Shown: positions 29,992 to 51,230 of the stretch, in pieces
How the letters are laid out: every line of letters starts with the position of its first letter
Numbering within the stretch: the stretch's first letter is position 1
Source: Candidatus Mediterraneibacter merdipullorum
GTDB taxonomy: Bacteria; Bacillota; Clostridia; Lachnospirales; Lachnospiraceae
NCBI GenBank assembly: GCA_019117125.1
Contig: DXAL01000030.1
Coordinates: 53,403 to 117,402, forward strand
Length of the DNA stretch: 64,000 bases
Direction of reading: 5' to 3'
The notes under the pieces: model-generated
Told to the model about the DNA's origin: nothing
The model's input: only the letters and a program-made list of their open reading frames with translations
Database searches by the model: none
Made by a program: the position numbers and the translations under genes

Positions 29992-30726
29992 CTATCTTCC
30001 CCAGAAAAACCAGCGGATTTTAAAATCCGTATCCGCCGTTATCCCGGAATACTCCTCTTCTGTCAATACATTTTTCAGTTTTTCCCTGCTCTGGTCCGGC
30101 ATCACTGCGTTTGTCGAATCAAGGAAGCAGAGTCCCGGATAGAGCACGCACCACCAGTTGTGGCCTCTGCCCCTGCCAATCTCGATGCGCAGCGCCTCAT
30201 AGTTTCCTGCCGGGAATGTCACATCTCCGTATGCCCGGTCCGGGAACCAGCATGTCGTCACGGCGGCGCTCACCGTGTACGCCTCTTCCGGGCATGTCCC
30301 GCCCGCACCCGCTTCTTCCGGATATGTCCGGTCCGCATCCGCTTCTTCCTGATACGTCCGGTCCGCACCCGCTTCTTCCGGTCTCTCCTCTGCAATGACC
30401 TGCCGGCTGACCGCTTCGATGGCATCGATATGTGCGCGCACCCAGTCCGCCGTCTCGTCTGCCGACGCTGCCGGGGGCATTTCTTCTTCCAGAAAGGCGA
30501 GCACCCTGTCCCGCACTTTGAGCTTTAACTCCTGGTCTGCCTCACTGTCGCTGTTTGCGAGCACGTGGAAGCGCAGGACTTCCTGCGCCAGATGCTGCTG
30601 TGTCTCGGCGCGCCGGGCTGCCTCCGCCTTCCGGCACATTCCGACGGTCAGCAGGGCCGCCAGGAGGAATGCCAGCAGAAAGCACAGCCGTTCCGCCCGT
30701 ACTGCCGTATTTTTTCCGGTCTTCAT
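29992..30726 (-). CDS. spoIIR: Stage II sporulation protein R, with internal 10-aa repeats
   Basis: MKTGKNTAVRAERLCFLL...LRFHVLANSDSEADQELKLKVRDRVL...GHNWWCVLYPGLCFLDS. Confidence 0.92.
   Translation of the reverse strand: MKTGKNTAVRAERLCFLLAFLLAALLTVGMCRKAEAARRAETQQHLAQEVLRFHVLANSDSEADQELKLKVRDRVLAFLEEEMPPAASADETADWVRAHIDAIEAVSRQVIAEERPEEAGADRTYQEEADADRTYPEEAGAGGTCPEEAYTVSAAVTTCWFPDRAYGDVTFPAGNYEALRIEIGRGRGHNWWCVLYPGLCFLDSTNAVMPDQSREKLKNVLTEEEYSGITADTDFKIRWFFWGR
30281..30380. repeat. 30-bp in-frame tandem repeat in spoIIR
   Basis: CCGCTTCTTCCGGATATGTCCGGTCCGCA-like units; encodes EEAGADRTYQ/EEADADRTYP/EEAGAGGTCP/EEA. Confidence 0.8.
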
Positions 30727-36234: not shown

Positions 36235-36346
36235 ATGAGTTCCCTCCTCTTTTCTCCCGGGATTTTTCTTCTGCTATTATTGTAGCTGTCATGGGAAGAA
36301 AAAGCAATGTGTAAATTCCGGCTGTGCAAATTTCGGTTATTATTAA

Positions 36347-36426
36347 TCTTGAAAACGTGAGAATCTTCTGGTTTAAAATTCTTGAAAACGTGATATAATA
36401 GCTGTATAAAAATCTCGAAAACGTGA
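36347..36426 (+). promoter_or_regulatory. Three iteron-like direct repeats TCT[T/C]GAAAACGTGA, exact 33-bp period
   Basis: Copies at 36347-36360, 36380-36393, 36413-36426; copy 2 abuts TATAAT (36394-36399), copy 3 abuts the RBS. Confidence 0.85.
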
Positions 36427-36437
36427 GGGCATATGGA

Positions 36438-37790
36438 GTGAAGAGAAAAATATATGACAAATTGATTGAATGGAAAAATGACGGCGCAAATAAAACAGCG
36501 CTGCTGATTGATGGCGCCCGCCGTGTTGGGAAAAGCTATATTGCTGAAAAATTCGGAAGAAACGAATACAAATCTTATATCATGGTCGACTTCAATAATG
36601 CGCCGAATGAAATAAGAGACCTTTTTGAACATTATCTGAACGACCTGGATACATTCTATATGTATCTTTCCGCCTACTATAATGTGAAATTGTACAGGGG
36701 CGAATCGCTGATTATCTTCGATGAGGTGCAGCTTTTTCCAAGGGCAAGAGCTGCAGTCAAGTATCTCATTGCAGACGGACGCTATCATTTTCTGGAAACA
36801 GGTTCTCTGATTTCTATCAAAAGAAATGTACAGGACATCGTCATTCCATCTGAAGAAAGACATATCAGGATGTATCCGATGGATTTTGAGGAATTTCTCT
36901 GGGCGGCAGGAAACGATACGCTGATAAAACTTGCAGGCTCCTGCTTTGAGAAACGCACACCTCTCGGACAAACAATGCACCGAAAAGCACTTGACTTGTT
37001 CCGCCAGTATATGATTGTCGGCGGAATGCCACAGGCGGTACAGGAATACATCGAATCGAGAGATTTTGACCGCGTTGACCGGATTAAGAGAGATATATTG
37101 ACACTTTACAGGGCTGATGTCGGGAAATATGCAACCGGATACGAACGTAAAGTAGAAAGTATTTTTGATGAAATACCTGCTCAGTTGAGCAGACATGAGA
37201 AAAAATTCCGGCTGGCATCCATCAGCAGGGAAGCGCGCCTGCGCGAATATGAAGATGCGTTTGCGTGGCTGGACGATGCGATGATTATAAATATCTGCTA
37301 TAATTCCACTGAGCCGAATATAGGACTTCGACTGAATATGGACCGGATGACAATGAAATGCTATATGGCTGATACAGGTCTGCTCATCAGTCACGCGTTT
37401 GATGAAAACGGTCTTGTCACAGAAGAAATATATCGAAAGCTCCTGTTCAATAAACTGGAAGTAAATAAAGGCATGCTGTTGGAAAATATCGTTGCGCAGA
37501 TGCTCACAGCGTCCGGTCACGCGCTGTATTTTTATTCCAATTCTTCCAGGGAAGACGCCGCATCGCGAATGGAAATTGATTTCCTTACAGCAAAGAGCAA
37601 GATTACAAGCAGGCATAATATATCACCTATTGAAGTAAAATCTGGAAATCATTATACACTGAACTCACTGAACAAATTTCGGGCGAAATACCGGGAACAG
37701 CTTCATACAGCATATGTCGTGCATACAGGGGATTTGAAGGAAGAAAATGGAATCGTCTATCTTCCGATATACATGGTTCCTTTTCTGTGA
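36438..37790 (+). CDS. AAA_14 / DUF4143 family ATPase
   Basis: KRKIYDKLIEWKNDGANKTALLIDGARRVGKSYIAEKFG; LIIFDEVQ; C-terminal EIDFLTAKSKI...PIEVKSG. GTG start at 36438 chosen by RBS spacing and alignment with the paralog at 49756. Confidence 0.9.
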   Translation: MKRKIYDKLIEWKNDGANKTALLIDGARRVGKSYIAEKFGRNEYKSYIMVDFNNAPNEIRDLFEHYLNDLDTFYMYLSAYYNVKLYRGESLIIFDEVQLFPRARAAVKYLIADGRYHFLETGSLISIKRNVQDIVIPSEERHIRMYPMDFEEFLWAAGNDTLIKLAGSCFEKRTPLGQTMHRKALDLFRQYMIVGGMPQAVQEYIESRDFDRVDRIKRDILTLYRADVGKYATGYERKVESIFDEIPAQLSRHEKKFRLASISREARLREYEDAFAWLDDAMIINICYNSTEPNIGLRLNMDRMTMKCYMADTGLLISHAFDENGLVTEEIYRKLLFNKLEVNKGMLLENIVAQMLTASGHALYFYSNSSREDAASRMEIDFLTAKSKITSRHNISPIEVKSGNHYTLNSLNKFRAKYREQLHTAYVVHTGDLKEENGIVYLPIYMVPFL

Positions 37791-37823
37791 TATTGCACAT
37801 AGAACTTACGATAAAAAAGTAAG

Positions 37824-37856
37824 AAGCCCGCTGACCTCAAACCAGTCAGCGGGCTT
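37824..37856. terminator. Bidirectional terminator
   Basis: GAAGCCCGCTGAC ctcaaac cAGTCAGCGGGCTTC between convergent genes. Confidence 0.85.
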
Positions 37857-37908
37857 CCCGCTCTTATCACATATCTGCCCCGGGCGTGTATCCCCGGGAT
37901 ATCCTGTC

Positions 37909-38481
37909 CTAGCCCTTCATCTCGATGGCTTTCTTCGGACACGCCTCCGCGCAGATGCCGCATTCCACACATTTTTCCTCATCCAGCTTCCAGGTCTTCT
38001 CCTTCCGGTCCACCTGGAGGGCTTCCTGGGGACACTTCTTCGCGCAGAGCGTACAGTATACGCATTTCTCCGCATCCATCACCGGCTTTCCGCCTGCCGC
38101 AGCCTGGCTGCCGGCAGCCTCCGCCTTCTCTTCCTGAGGCTTGACGACCGTCTCGCTCTTCTTCGTGATATCCGGCTCCGTGTAGCCTTTTTCCATTGTC
38201 AGGCATTTCTTCGGACATGCCAGCACACAGCTTCCGCACTGGACGCAGTCGAACCGGCTGATGGTCCATGTCCCGGCTTTGCGGTCCACCTGGATTGCCA
38301 GGGACGGGCAGGCTCTCGCGCACAGCCCGCAGGTGATGCAGTCCTCGATTTTAATCGTCACATGCCCGCGCATCCGCTCCGGGTACTCCACGGGCTCATA
38401 GGGGTATTTGACCGTCGCCGGCTTTTTAAACAGGTTTCCCAGTATCCTGCCGGCAAGCGTAAACATTTTTGTTCGTTCCAT
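37909..38481 (-). CDS. echF: Ech-type hydrogenase ferredoxin-like subunit with four [4Fe-4S] motifs
   Basis: CITCGLCARACP, CVQCGSCVLACP, CVYCTLCAKKCP, CVECGICAEACP. Confidence 0.85.
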   Translation of the reverse strand: MERTKMFTLAGRILGNLFKKPATVKYPYEPVEYPERMRGHVTIKIEDCITCGLCARACPSLAIQVDRKAGTWTISRFDCVQCGSCVLACPKKCLTMEKGYTEPDITKKSETVVKPQEEKAEAAGSQAAAGGKPVMDAEKCVYCTLCAKKCPQEALQVDRKEKTWKLDEEKCVECGICAEACPKKAIEMKG

Positions 38482-44337: not shown

Positions 44338-46844
44338 ACCGTCCACGCCCGCAGACGGAACACCAGGCCGGATACCGGCAGGTCCGCCTCGAAGTCAACG
44401 GCATCGTCCAGGGCGTCGGATTCCGCCCCTTCCTCCACCGGATTGCCGGACAGCACCGCATCACCGGGTGGGTGCGCAACACATCCGCAGGGCTGGAGGG
44501 CATCCTGGAAGGGACGCCGACAGACCTGGATGACTTCCTCCGGACGGTCCGGACTTGCCCGCCGCCCATGGCGCAGATAGAATCCCTCCGGACCACAGCC
44601 GACGGCTCCGGCAGCTCCCGCTGTTTTTCCGGATTCGTCATCCGCGACAGCCGCATCCGTTCCGGCGCCACGCTCATCTCACCGGACAGCGCCATGTGCC
44701 CGGACTGCGAAGCCGAACTGTATGACCGCACAGACCGCAGATACCGCTATCCCTTTATCAACTGTACGAACTGCGGTCCCCGGTATACAATTATCCGGGC
44801 GCTCCCCTACGACCGGGAGCGCACCGTGATGGCGGAGTTCGCCATGTGCCCGGACTGTGAAGCCGAATACCATGACATTTCCAACCGGCGCTATCACGCC
44901 CAGCCGGACTGCTGCGGAACATGCGGACCGCAGATATCCTATGTTCCGGCGGACCGCCCGGTCCAGAGCGGCAGTCTGACTCCGGCAGAACTTTCGTCCA
45001 CAGAGGACGCGCTCCGGCGCGCCCAGGAGCTTCTCGCCTCCGGCGGCATCCTCGCGGTCAAAGGCATCGGCGGCATCCATCTCGCCTGCAGCGCCCTGGA
45101 TGCATCTGCCGTACAGCGCCTGCGCCTGCGCAAGCACCGGGCGGAAAAGCCGCTTGCACTCATGTGCCGGTCCATGGACGCGCTCCGGCGCATCTGCGAA
45201 GTCACCCCGGCGGAAGAACGGCTTCTGACCGGACCGGAGCGCCCCATCGTCCTGCTGAAGAAAAAGGACTTCCGAAACCCGCAGGAAATACCAGGCGGTC
45301 CGGAAGAACGTCTAAAAAAAGCCCTGGACGCCCTCAGCTTCAGCCCCAGGCTCGGAGTCATGCTCCCCTACACGCCGCTGCACACTCTGCTTGCAGACGG
45401 CGCCTACGGCGGTCCGGATATCCTTGTGATGACAAGCGGGAACCTCTCCGGATGCCCGGTCTTGACAGACAACGGGGACGCCCTGCGCCTCCTTTCCGGC
45501 GTGGCGGACGGCTTTCTCCTGCACAACCGGAGGATTGAGAACCGCTGCGATGATTCCCTCGTAATGGAATGGCAGGGCGCGCCCTACTTCCTGCGCAGGA
45601 GCAGGGGGTATGCGCCTGCACCCGTCACGCTGGAAGGGGCGGACGGCATCTTCGCCCTCGGCGCGGAGCAGAAAGCGTCTTTCGCTCTGGGAAGAGAGTC
45701 CCATGTATTTTTAAGCCCCTACATCGGGGACCTGAAAAACGCGGAAACTTTTGAACATTATGAGAACGCGCTCCGAACATACGAGCGGCTCTTCCGTCTG
45801 AAGCCTGCGCTCTACGTCTGCGACCTCCATCCGGATTACCTGTCCTCGCAGGAAGCCGCAGGGCGAAGCGCATCCGAAGGCATGCCCCTTCTCCGGGTGC
45901 AGCACCACTGGGCGCACATGGCGTCCTGCATGGCGGACAATCATCTGGACACCCCGTGCTTTGGCATCATCTGGGACGGCACCGGACTTGGGACAGACGG
46001 CGCCATCTGGGGCGGCGAATTCCTGAAAGGGGACTTTTCCTCGTTCCGGCGGGCAGGCTCCATCCGCCCCGTCCTGCTGCCCGGCGGCGACCGGGCTGTC
46101 CGGGAGATTGGGAGGACTGCCCTCGCCCTCATCACAGACGCTTTCCGGGACTCCCCGAAAGAGCGGGACAGCGCCCTTGCCCTTGTCCCCCTTGAACCTC
46201 AGAAACGCCGGATGCTCTCCGCCCTTCTGGACGGATCTGCGCAGGCAGCCCCGAAAGCCAGCAGCATCGGCAGGCTCTTTGACGGCGTATGCGCTCTCCT
46301 GCTTGGGAAAGCAGAGGCAGATTACGAAGGGGAAGGGGCAGCGCTTGTGGAAGCCCGTTCCCCGGCAGAGACGCCCGACGAAGCCTGTTCTCCGGCGGAG
46401 ATGCCCGGCGAAGCCGCGCCGTCTGCTCCTTGCTGGGACAGGATGCACCAGCTTGCCTTCCCCCTTCATTTTTATGAGGAGGACGGCATGCGCGTCTTCG
46501 ATACGCGCCCGATGATGCGCGCCCTTGCGGCGGAACTGCAGAAAGGAACGGATACCGGTCATCTGGCGTTTCGTTTCCTGTCCACACTGGTCTGCATGGC
46601 AGCCGGTCAGTGCATGGAGCTCAATCCGGAGAAGCTCCCCGTCGTTTTATCCGGGGGAGTGTTTCAGAACCGCTTCCTCCTCCACGGCGTCACCGCCCTG
46701 CTGGAAGAGAAAGGATTCACCGTATATACGCACCACCGCGTATCCACAAACGACGAGGGCGTCTGTCTCGGACAGCTCGCCGTCGCACGCAAGAAAAGGA
46801 GTATGAAGAACTATGTGTCTGGCAATGCCCATGAAAATCCATAA
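44334..46844 (+). CDS. hypF: Carbamoyltransferase HypF
   Basis: Acylphosphatase VNGIVQGVGFRPFLHRIA; zinc-finger CPDCEAEL/CTNCGPRY; VLSGGVFQNRFLL. Confidence 0.95.
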   Translation: MNRPRPQTEHQAGYRQVRLEVNGIVQGVGFRPFLHRIAGQHRITGWVRNTSAGLEGILEGTPTDLDDFLRTVRTCPPPMAQIESLRTTADGSGSSRCFSGFVIRDSRIRSGATLISPDSAMCPDCEAELYDRTDRRYRYPFINCTNCGPRYTIIRALPYDRERTVMAEFAMCPDCEAEYHDISNRRYHAQPDCCGTCGPQISYVPADRPVQSGSLTPAELSSTEDALRRAQELLASGGILAVKGIGGIHLACSALDASAVQRLRLRKHRAEKPLALMCRSMDALRRICEVTPAEERLLTGPERPIVLLKKKDFRNPQEIPGGPEERLKKALDALSFSPRLGVMLPYTPLHTLLADGAYGGPDILVMTSGNLSGCPVLTDNGDALRLLSGVADGFLLHNRRIENRCDDSLVMEWQGAPYFLRRSRGYAPAPVTLEGADGIFALGAEQKASFALGRESHVFLSPYIGDLKNAETFEHYENALRTYERLFRLKPALYVCDLHPDYLSSQEAAGRSASEGMPLLRVQHHWAHMASCMADNHLDTPCFGIIWDGTGLGTDGAIWGGEFLKGDFSSFRRAGSIRPVLLPGGDRAVREIGRTALALITDAFRDSPKERDSALALVPLEPQKRRMLSALLDGSAQAAPKASSIGRLFDGVCALLLGKAEADYEGEGAALVEARSPAETPDEACSPAEMPGEAAPSAPCWDRMHQLAFPLHFYEEDGMRVFDTRPMMRALAAELQKGTDTGHLAFRFLSTLVCMAAGQCMELNPEKLPVVLSGGVFQNRFLLHGVTALLEEKGFTVYTHHRVSTNDEGVCLGQLAVARKKRSMKNYVSGNAHENP
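46350..46421. repeat. 30-bp in-frame tandem repeat in hypF
   Basis: GAAGCCCGTTCCCCGGCAGAGACGCCCGAC / GAAGCCTGTTCTCCGGCGGAGATGCCCGGC / GAAGCC... Confidence 0.75.
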
Positions 46845-49755: not shown

Positions 49756-51084
49756 TCACAGAAACGCCGCCATATACACCGGAAGCATAAACACATCTTT
49801 CTCTTTCTGCATATCTTTTGTATATACCAGGTATTTTTCGCCAATACGCTCCGAATATTTTTCTGAAAAATTATCAAGAGAAGCATGCGTTTTATAGCCG
49901 GATGATTTCACCTCAATCGGGCATATCTTATTCTTTCTCGCCAGAATAAAATCAATCTCATAATTATGCTTTGTTTTTTTATTAAGGAAGGTATGATAAA
50001 ACAGTTCATTTCCATTTGTCGCCAGCATCTGCGCCACTACATTTTCATACAAATACCCGAGATTTACACCGAGTTTATCATTCAGCAGTTTCTCATAGAT
50101 GATATTTTCTGTGTAATCTTTATCTTTAAATACCAGCGTCGTAAACAAGCCTGTATCCGCCAGAAACAGTTTAAACTTTGACAAATCCTTGTGATTTGAC
50201 ATACCAGCATTCGGGTCATTCACATGATAGGCAACAAGAACAGTCCCCGAATCTTTCATTTCGGCGACAAGTTCCAGAATATGTTCTGCCCTGCCATTAG
50301 GTAAAACGCCGGACACCTGATATCTCGATGCATTTTTATTCAACTGCGCCGGAATTGCATCAAAAAGCTCTGATACTCTTCCTGTCGGGTCTATTTTTTT
50401 GAAATCATCCTCGTACAGATTCAGGATATCTCTCTTTACTGCATCCACCATCCTGAAATTATTTGTCCGGAGATATTCATCTACTGCCTGGGGCATCCCG
50501 CCCACCAGCATATACAACCGGAAGCTCCGCATCATTTTCCGATTCACCGCTTCTCCCAGCGGCTTCTCCGCCTCATATGCGTGTTGTAATAATCTCATTG
50601 TCGTTCCGTCGCCGACCGCCCAGAGAAATTCTTCATAATCCATCGGATACATGCGGATTTTTCGCTCTTCACTTGGAATAAGGATATCCTTTACATTTTT
50701 CCGGATGGAAATCAGGGAGCCCGTTTCTATATAATCATATCTTCCATCTTTGACGAGCGCTTTAATCGCCTGCCGCGCCAGCGGAAATAACTGTACCTCA
50801 TCAAAAACGATAAGAGAGTCTCTTTCTGTCAGGTCCGTTTTATACTGAAGCTGCAGCTGCAGGAAAAAATAGTTCAAATCTGATAAATCCTCAAACAGTT
50901 CTTTAACTGCTGAAGGCGCAATGGAAAAATCAATCATAATATAACTTGCATACTCGCGTCTTCCGAATTCTTCCACAACTGTAGATTTTCCCACACGCCG
51001 CGCACCTTCAATCAGCAGCGCTGTCCTCCCTCCGGATTCCTGTTTCCATTGAAGCAGTTTTTCATATATCTTTCTTTTAAACAT
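49756..51084 (-). CDS. AAA_14 / DUF4143 family ATPase
   Basis: MFKRKIYEKLLQWKQESGGRTALLIEGARRVGKSTVVEEFG; LIVFDEVQ; C-terminal EIDFILARKNKICPIEVKSS. Start at 51084 gives an AAGGAG RBS ~9 nt upstream. Confidence 0.9.
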   Translation of the reverse strand: MFKRKIYEKLLQWKQESGGRTALLIEGARRVGKSTVVEEFGRREYASYIMIDFSIAPSAVKELFEDLSDLNYFFLQLQLQYKTDLTERDSLIVFDEVQLFPLARQAIKALVKDGRYDYIETGSLISIRKNVKDILIPSEERKIRMYPMDYEEFLWAVGDGTTMRLLQHAYEAEKPLGEAVNRKMMRSFRLYMLVGGMPQAVDEYLRTNNFRMVDAVKRDILNLYEDDFKKIDPTGRVSELFDAIPAQLNKNASRYQVSGVLPNGRAEHILELVAEMKDSGTVLVAYHVNDPNAGMSNHKDLSKFKLFLADTGLFTTLVFKDKDYTENIIYEKLLNDKLGVNLGYLYENVVAQMLATNGNELFYHTFLNKKTKHNYEIDFILARKNKICPIEVKSSGYKTHASLDNFSEKYSERIGEKYLVYTKDMQKEKDVFMLPVYMAAFL

Positions 51085-51114
51085 GATAAGCATCTCCTTT
51101 TCCTTATCATACCC

Positions 51115-51230
51115 AAAATCGTCGTTTTTATCAACCGCATTTTTAACAAAATCGTCATTTTTATTTTTGCATTTTCCTACAAAATCGTCATTTTTATTTT
51201 CCTCGTTTTACACAAAATCGTCCTTTTTGC
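51115..51230 (-). promoter_or_regulatory. Four iteron-like direct repeats (minus strand AAAAANGACGATTTTG), exact 33-bp period, with promoter TTGATA-17-TATGAT
   Basis: AAAATCGTC copies start at 51115, 51148, 51181, 51214; promoter-proximal copy lies inside the -35/-10 spacer. Confidence 0.88.

Follow-up and report, generated by a model that had tools for sequence, protein, structure and literature searches.

A promoter-overlapping array of 33-bp-spaced direct repeats as the probable private operator of a DUF4143 ATPase of the PDC-S01 family

The window, a 64,000-nt stretch of the Candidatus Mediterraneibacter merdipullorum genome, carries on its forward strand an ATPase gene (36438..37790) whose product combines AAA_14 and DUF4143 domains, both scoring above their curated cut-offs (77.6 bits against 27 and 82.1 bits against 28.1, respectively). 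The protein matches PDC-S01 (PDLC04786, E 2e-118), a PADLOC phage-defence candidate of the AAA_14-DUF4143, COG1373-like type; the earlier statement that DUF4143 proteins have no agreed function is correct, though this gene had already been catalogued as a defence candidate. The longest open reading frame begins at GTG 36423, whereas the likely start codon is GTG 36438, at which the family's N-terminal MKRKIY aligns; residue numbers given below run from GTG 36423.

Upstream of the gene lie three direct repeats on the forward strand, of which copy 1 (36347..36360) and copy 2 (36380..36393) read TCTTGAAAACGTGA and copy 3 (36413..36426), within which GTG 36423 falls, reads TCTCGAAAACGTGA. The positions and the spacing of exactly 33 and 33 bp reproduce those of the original prediction. 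With up to two mismatches allowed, the array motif was matched five times in the window against 0.83 expected (none of 100 shuffles reached five), and the exact matches were three, all of them the array copies. A whole-genome search found no further occurrence of the exact array pattern, and a regulon extending beyond the ATPase gene was rejected on this ground. Tandem Repeats Finder did not detect the array upstream of the 36438 gene, an omission presumably due to the lack of conservation in the spacers that separate its copies. Between the array and a divergent DUF4190-like gene there is a 15-bp imperfect tandem duplication, TGTGCAAATTCCGGC (36308-36336); elsewhere in the window, 30-bp tandem repeats at 30280-30381 (3.4 copies) and 46350-46415 (2.2 copies), with a unit that is a multiple of three, are possibly repeats within coding sequence.

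A promoter scan identified a promoter-like element, TTTAAA-16-TATAAT (36372..36399, forward strand; 10/12), in which the GTGA of copy 2 leads straight into TATAAT (36394-36399) and provides the TGn of an extended -10. At the other end of the leader, copy 3 overlaps the Shine-Dalgarno region, with a presumptive Shine-Dalgarno-like GAGGG (36425..36429, forward strand) at its end. Both contacts, the second copy abutting TATAAT and the third running into the ribosome-binding site, had been pointed out beforehand and were seen again here. The sites thus overlap the gene's own promoter, as those of an autoregulatory operator do, and this holds for relatives as well as for the window: among 113 close-relative loci, a repeat copy was fused to TATAAT (at most one mismatch) in 60 (expectation 25) and to TAnnTTTG, the element of Bacteroidetes, in 39 (expectation 4). 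In these loci the -10 was placed 0-4 nt past a repeat's GTG, and the copy bearing it was most often the second counted from the start codon. Two phyla with unlike promoter grammar thus position the core promoter identically relative to the repeat.

The AAA_14 ATPase domain spans residues 24-159 (36492..36899), with a Walker A lysine at K37 and Walker B residues at D100/E101. Inspection of the secondary structure of the AlphaFold model (pLDDT 89) placed a winged helix-turn-helix (HTH) within DUF4143 at about residues 241-315 (37143..37367); in the model, a short helix-turn is followed by a helix at residues 273-285 and then by two strands, which together form the predicted winged HTH, the recognition helix starting at residues 268-276 (37224..37250). 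Further downstream, a loop of the nuclease-like domain (residues 372-377; 37536..37553) is followed by a PD-(D/E)xK-like motif, D386 ... E404-x-K406 (37578..37640), recognised by inspection; all of these features lie on the forward strand, and the model shows residues 374-382 as a loop preceding the strand that bears D386. Across an alignment of 106 relatives, K37, D100/E101, D386 and K406 were invariant and E404 was kept in at least 90%. No solved homologue was found at sequence-search thresholds, and the fold matches (Orc/Cdc6, NB-ARC, MuB) were weak.

The original prediction had been staked on repeats upstream of orthologs in sister strains, and these were present in sister species and in several phyla. 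Nearly all of the 80 relatives that we fetched (58-82% identity; Firmicutes, Bacteroidetes, Spirochaetes, Acholeplasmatales, Kiritimatiellae and one Myxococcales MAG) carried between two and five direct repeats immediately 5' of the gene; once further genomes had enlarged the set to 257 DUF4143 relatives, from Firmicutes, Bacteroidetes, Spirochaetes and other groups, 252 had direct repeats upstream. Of 212 unique upstream regions, 198 contained a 14-mer repeated at 12/14 or better, as did 20 of the 212 after shuffling, and the lags peaked sharply at 33. This unconstrained lag scan is the fair test of spacing, since the array caller was restricted to spacings of 31-35 bp; the 445 spacings that it called were 33 (348), 34 (60), 32 (26), 31 (7) and 35 (4). 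Repeat spelling was common to the copies of one locus and unlike between loci, where cores such as GATTTCGTG, GAAAACGTG, CAAAAAGGTG, GGAATGGTG and AGATTCGTG were found among others; a plasmid homologue in Segatella copri DSM 18205 is preceded by three repeats of the TCAAAACGTGA type. The array flanks the gene on its 5' side and not on its 3' side: a locus's own core recurred within 300 nt downstream in 4 of 104 cases against 2 of 104 in the control, so that 3' partner repeats were lacking. Arrays are not universal in the wider DUF4143 family (13 of 36 against 1 shuffled), most of the short members (~410 aa) having none, and a distinct DUF4143 group (upstream regions L088, L367, L368 and L369) shows a period of 23 bp, about two helical turns, instead of 33. 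On viral contigs, a protein scan found no encoded relative and an array search no match; some unannotated 'phage' records from human faeces contain relatives (best 62%) and may be bacterial fragments.

Several such genes coexist in one genome, each with its own spelling. On the reverse strand of the window, a second DUF4143 gene (49756..51084), also PDC-S01 and 46% identical to the first, lies downstream of a second array (51114..51222) made of four copies of GACGATTTTG at 51213, 51180, 51147 and 51114, again 33 bp apart. The genome holds ten other DUF4143 matches, several with arrays spelled in their own way; in Bacteroidales, one genome contains seven relatives, and another five, whose arrays are distinct. 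A few paralogue arrays, where most alike, have as many as 12 or 13 bases out of 14 in common. A hydrogenase-gene junction, compared over window positions 36340-37910 and loci L135, L140, L141, L149 and L150, is in sister species either empty or filled by array plus gene in the orientation opposite to that in the window. By the same junction, two sister species (L128/L186 and L130/L187) keep two repeats without an ATPase, directly 5' of a PHP-like gene or an MKKLAVIFPG gene; these are relic arrays that now precede foreign genes. The occurrence of empty, filled and remnant junctions in sister species indicates that array and gene come and go as a unit. Third-copy matches some 7 kb away in two genomes (G048 and G058) lie inside a murI-like gene and were set aside as chance, and one locus (L150) differs from its near-identical counterpart L149 by an extra REP-like stretch of ~110 bp with CGATAAGCACGG, intergenic and beside the array.

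The variation in spelling allowed repeat bases, numbered from 0 in TCTTGATTTCGTGT, to be compared with protein columns across 113 relatives that share 57.5% identity or more and amount to an effective number of ~62. Mutual information singled out residues 374, 376, 270 and 275, with 272-274 nearby; at the start of the recognition helix, residues 270, 272, 273, 274 and 275 co-vary with bases 9, 10, 8, 12 and 13, respectively, and in the nuclease-domain loop residue 374 co-varies with base 5 and residue 376 with bases 4 and 3. Base 10 was G in 101 of 105 proteins with R/K272 and in none of eight with S/A/T272, and base 12 was G in all 109 with Arg 274. Base 4 was G in 76 of 80 with R/K376 (6 of 33 otherwise) and A in 25 of 25 with a gap, Q, S, T or D at that residue, while base 5 was G in 15 of 19 with Y374 and in 2 of 94 otherwise. 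Base 9 was C in 36 of 48 with D/E270 and G in 41 of 47 with G/R/K/H270, and base 13 was C in 8 of 9 with Ser/Thr/Arg 275. These residue-base tables resemble a code for DNA recognition, in which residues 270, 272, 274 and 275 run in parallel with bases 9, 10, 12 and 13; bases 6-8, an A/T tract, were poorly explained by the main contacts.

Because phylogeny confounds mutual information, the simple ranking was supplemented by masked-tree, held-out and swap tests. On a tree masked for the tested segments, with 666 residue-group tests per base, the top residues were 272 (base 10), 376 (bases 4 and 3), 270 (base 9), 374 (base 5) and 275 (base 13), with co-change P values of 0.003 to 0.06; the result for residue 272 rests on only two residue changes in the tree. 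In 24 new loci, some of them dependent on the training set, the rules held for R/K272 (21/21), R/K376 (11/11), G/R/K/H270 (10/10), Y374 (3/3) and S275 (2/2); the pairing of D/E270 with C9 held in 4 of 11 and failed in 7, and was downgraded from a firm rule. The Segatella copri DSM 18205 homologue, examined only afterwards, obeyed six of seven rules, its K270 alongside C9 contradicting the rule for residue 270. In the swap test, with training restricted to proteins of less than 75% identity, eight contact pairs picked the correct protein-array partner in 92.8% of 5206 pairs, compared with 47±9%, and never more than 62%, for randomly drawn columns of similar entropy. When the data were split into halves by cluster, the fixed contacts reached 93±2%, columns freely re-picked on half of the data 65±9%, and the best columns outside both surfaces 55±8%. 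The 93% is optimistic, as the contacts were picked on these same data, but the selection-matched control, the columns outside both surfaces, falls far short of it. Since the repeat letters track residues 270-275 and 374/376, the very probable binder of the array is the ATPase whose promoter it occupies, and the original prediction, which named it as the binder, was most probably right, to judge from covariation at the HTH recognition helix and the nuclease-domain loop.

We consider it highly likely that the array is a private operator of the downstream AAA+ ATPase/PD-(D/E)xK-fold protein, and that each of its sites is read in two parts. Each site of ~14 bp would be read jointly by two parts of the protein: the N-terminus of the recognition helix (residues 270-275) would contact the 3' half (cGTGa), and the loop at residues 374-376, beside the nuclease active site, the 5' half (ctTGA). 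As this loop adjoins the D386...E404-x-K406 motif and covaries with the 5' bases, a surface of the nuclease-like domain appears to do the reading there. Several protomers would occupy the same DNA face in head-to-tail order, at intervals of 33 bp, in a probably ATP-dependent assembly whose cooperativity would fit the same-face spacing of 33±1 bp. Covering both the -10 and the ribosome-binding region, they would repress their own promoter until some signal alters the ATPase. Autorepression is the natural and most likely reading of the position of the array, the geometry pointing to repression rather than activation. Because site and protein change together, paralogues in one cell would not cross-regulate.

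The patchy distribution of the gene (107 of 397 family genomes), together with relatives of 58-69% identity in different phyla and the numerous empty sites that sister species show at this hydrogenase junction, could instead mark the array as the end of a mobile element, with protein and array forming a transposase-like or homing unit in which binding serves excision and insertion as much as regulation. Filled and empty sites do differ from about the first repeat (L140 against L142) to just past the stop codon (L188), MuB is among the weak fold matches, and the combination of AAA+ and nuclease recalls TnsC plus TnsA. We regard this explanation as unlikely: matching repeats at both ends, as in a transposon, were not found, no direct or inverted copy standing at the 3' end (the 4/104 against 2/104 given above); an unsystematic look noticed no target duplication; the fusion of arrays to the -10 in two phyla favours regulation; and the partial arrays that survived gene loss in two species are what ordinary deletion leaves. 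Those two species, retaining two repeats without the ATPase, would also suit a separate host regulator that binds the repeats, with covariation reflecting shared ancestry. Such a regulator is very improbable, given that the residues ranking highest in covariation map to two surfaces and pair with bases in a way that makes chemical sense (Arg/Lys with G), that equally searched columns elsewhere reached 55% against 93%, and that arrays move with the gene across phyla; as each paralogue of one genome has its own array, one regulator per gene would be needed.

An overlap of the last copy with the Shine-Dalgarno region, and its closeness to the start in many loci, might suggest that the protein binds the repeats in the mRNA leader and controls translation. 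However, the -10 mostly comes after the second or third copy counted back from the start codon, so that the copies upstream of it, though equally conserved, fall outside the transcript; moreover, it is an HTH helix that appears to do the recognising, the fixed spacing of 33±1 bp fits the DNA helix, and a search of Rfam for structured RNA returned no match. We accordingly give control at the leader hardly any chance of being correct. Another reading takes the array as a leash that keeps a sequence-specific nuclease on a decoy, the nuclease being freed when the array is lost or titrated by invading DNA. The loop for bases 4-5 adjoins the catalytic strand, the catalytic residues are conserved and PDC-S01 is a defence candidate, yet the nuclease activity of the protein is putative and autoregulation alone accounts for the promoter overlap, which makes the leash a rather improbable explanation. 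A broader proposal, which we hold only as a tentative and on balance doubtful one, is that PDC-S01 is a self-addressed AAA+ nuclease with a private cis array and a diversifying two-surface code, in which the array also controls activity or targeting (as leash, self-cut switch or element address).

Among known systems, plasmid replication iterons, with autoregulation by Rep, consist of several direct repeats that precede the gene for their binding protein at near whole helical turns. The window array shares the direct repeats and the helical spacing (33±1 bp in most loci), with the binder here a predicted one. It departs from iterons in that the copies overlap promoter and ribosome-binding site, the AAA+/winged HTH/nuclease protein is not a Rep winged-helix initiator, and the AAA_14-DUF4143 gene stands singly among chromosomal genes, with no origin features seen; the label 'iteron-like' is thus apt for the repeat geometry, and no replication role was seen. 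Orc1/Cdc6 on origin DNA (2qby and others) offers a weak fold likeness, AAA+ followed by a DNA-bound winged helix, but is unrelated in sequence at search thresholds, gives TM-scores of 0.2-0.3 and differs by the extra nuclease-fold C-terminus of the present protein. The closest regulated analogue is RptR, the repressor of a Type I RM/DarTG2 island, which binds three direct repeats overlapping the -10 of a defence promoter (PMC12255303). RptR is a small dedicated homodimer that recognises 9-bp repeats with a conserved palindrome, TAGCTA (PMC12255303), whereas here the ATPase-nuclease itself is the apparent reader and the sites are 33 bp apart, non-palindromic and spelled differently at each locus.

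PDC-S01 has been described as a single gene in which an ATPase is fused to a PD-(D/E)xK-superfamily domain, and is reported to rank fourth in abundance among prokaryotic defence systems, with validation still pending for most PDCs (PMC12988326); its role in phage defence is a candidate one that draws on PADLOC and on abundance papers. In the literature searched, beyond which further papers may exist, we found no description of an upstream array, operator, DNA specificity or mechanism for PDC-S01. The present analysis gives a DNA site for more than 200 members of the family, together with the residues that apparently read it and the bases read by each. The pairing of array and protein offers a direct entry to PDC-S01 biochemistry, and provides a natural set of more than 200 matched proteins and DNA sites in which the evolution of DNA specificity can be followed. 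If the reading as a self-addressed nuclease were true, a candidate defence gene that ranks among the most frequent in prokaryotes would carry its own recognition code, with the nuclease domain as one of the reading surfaces.
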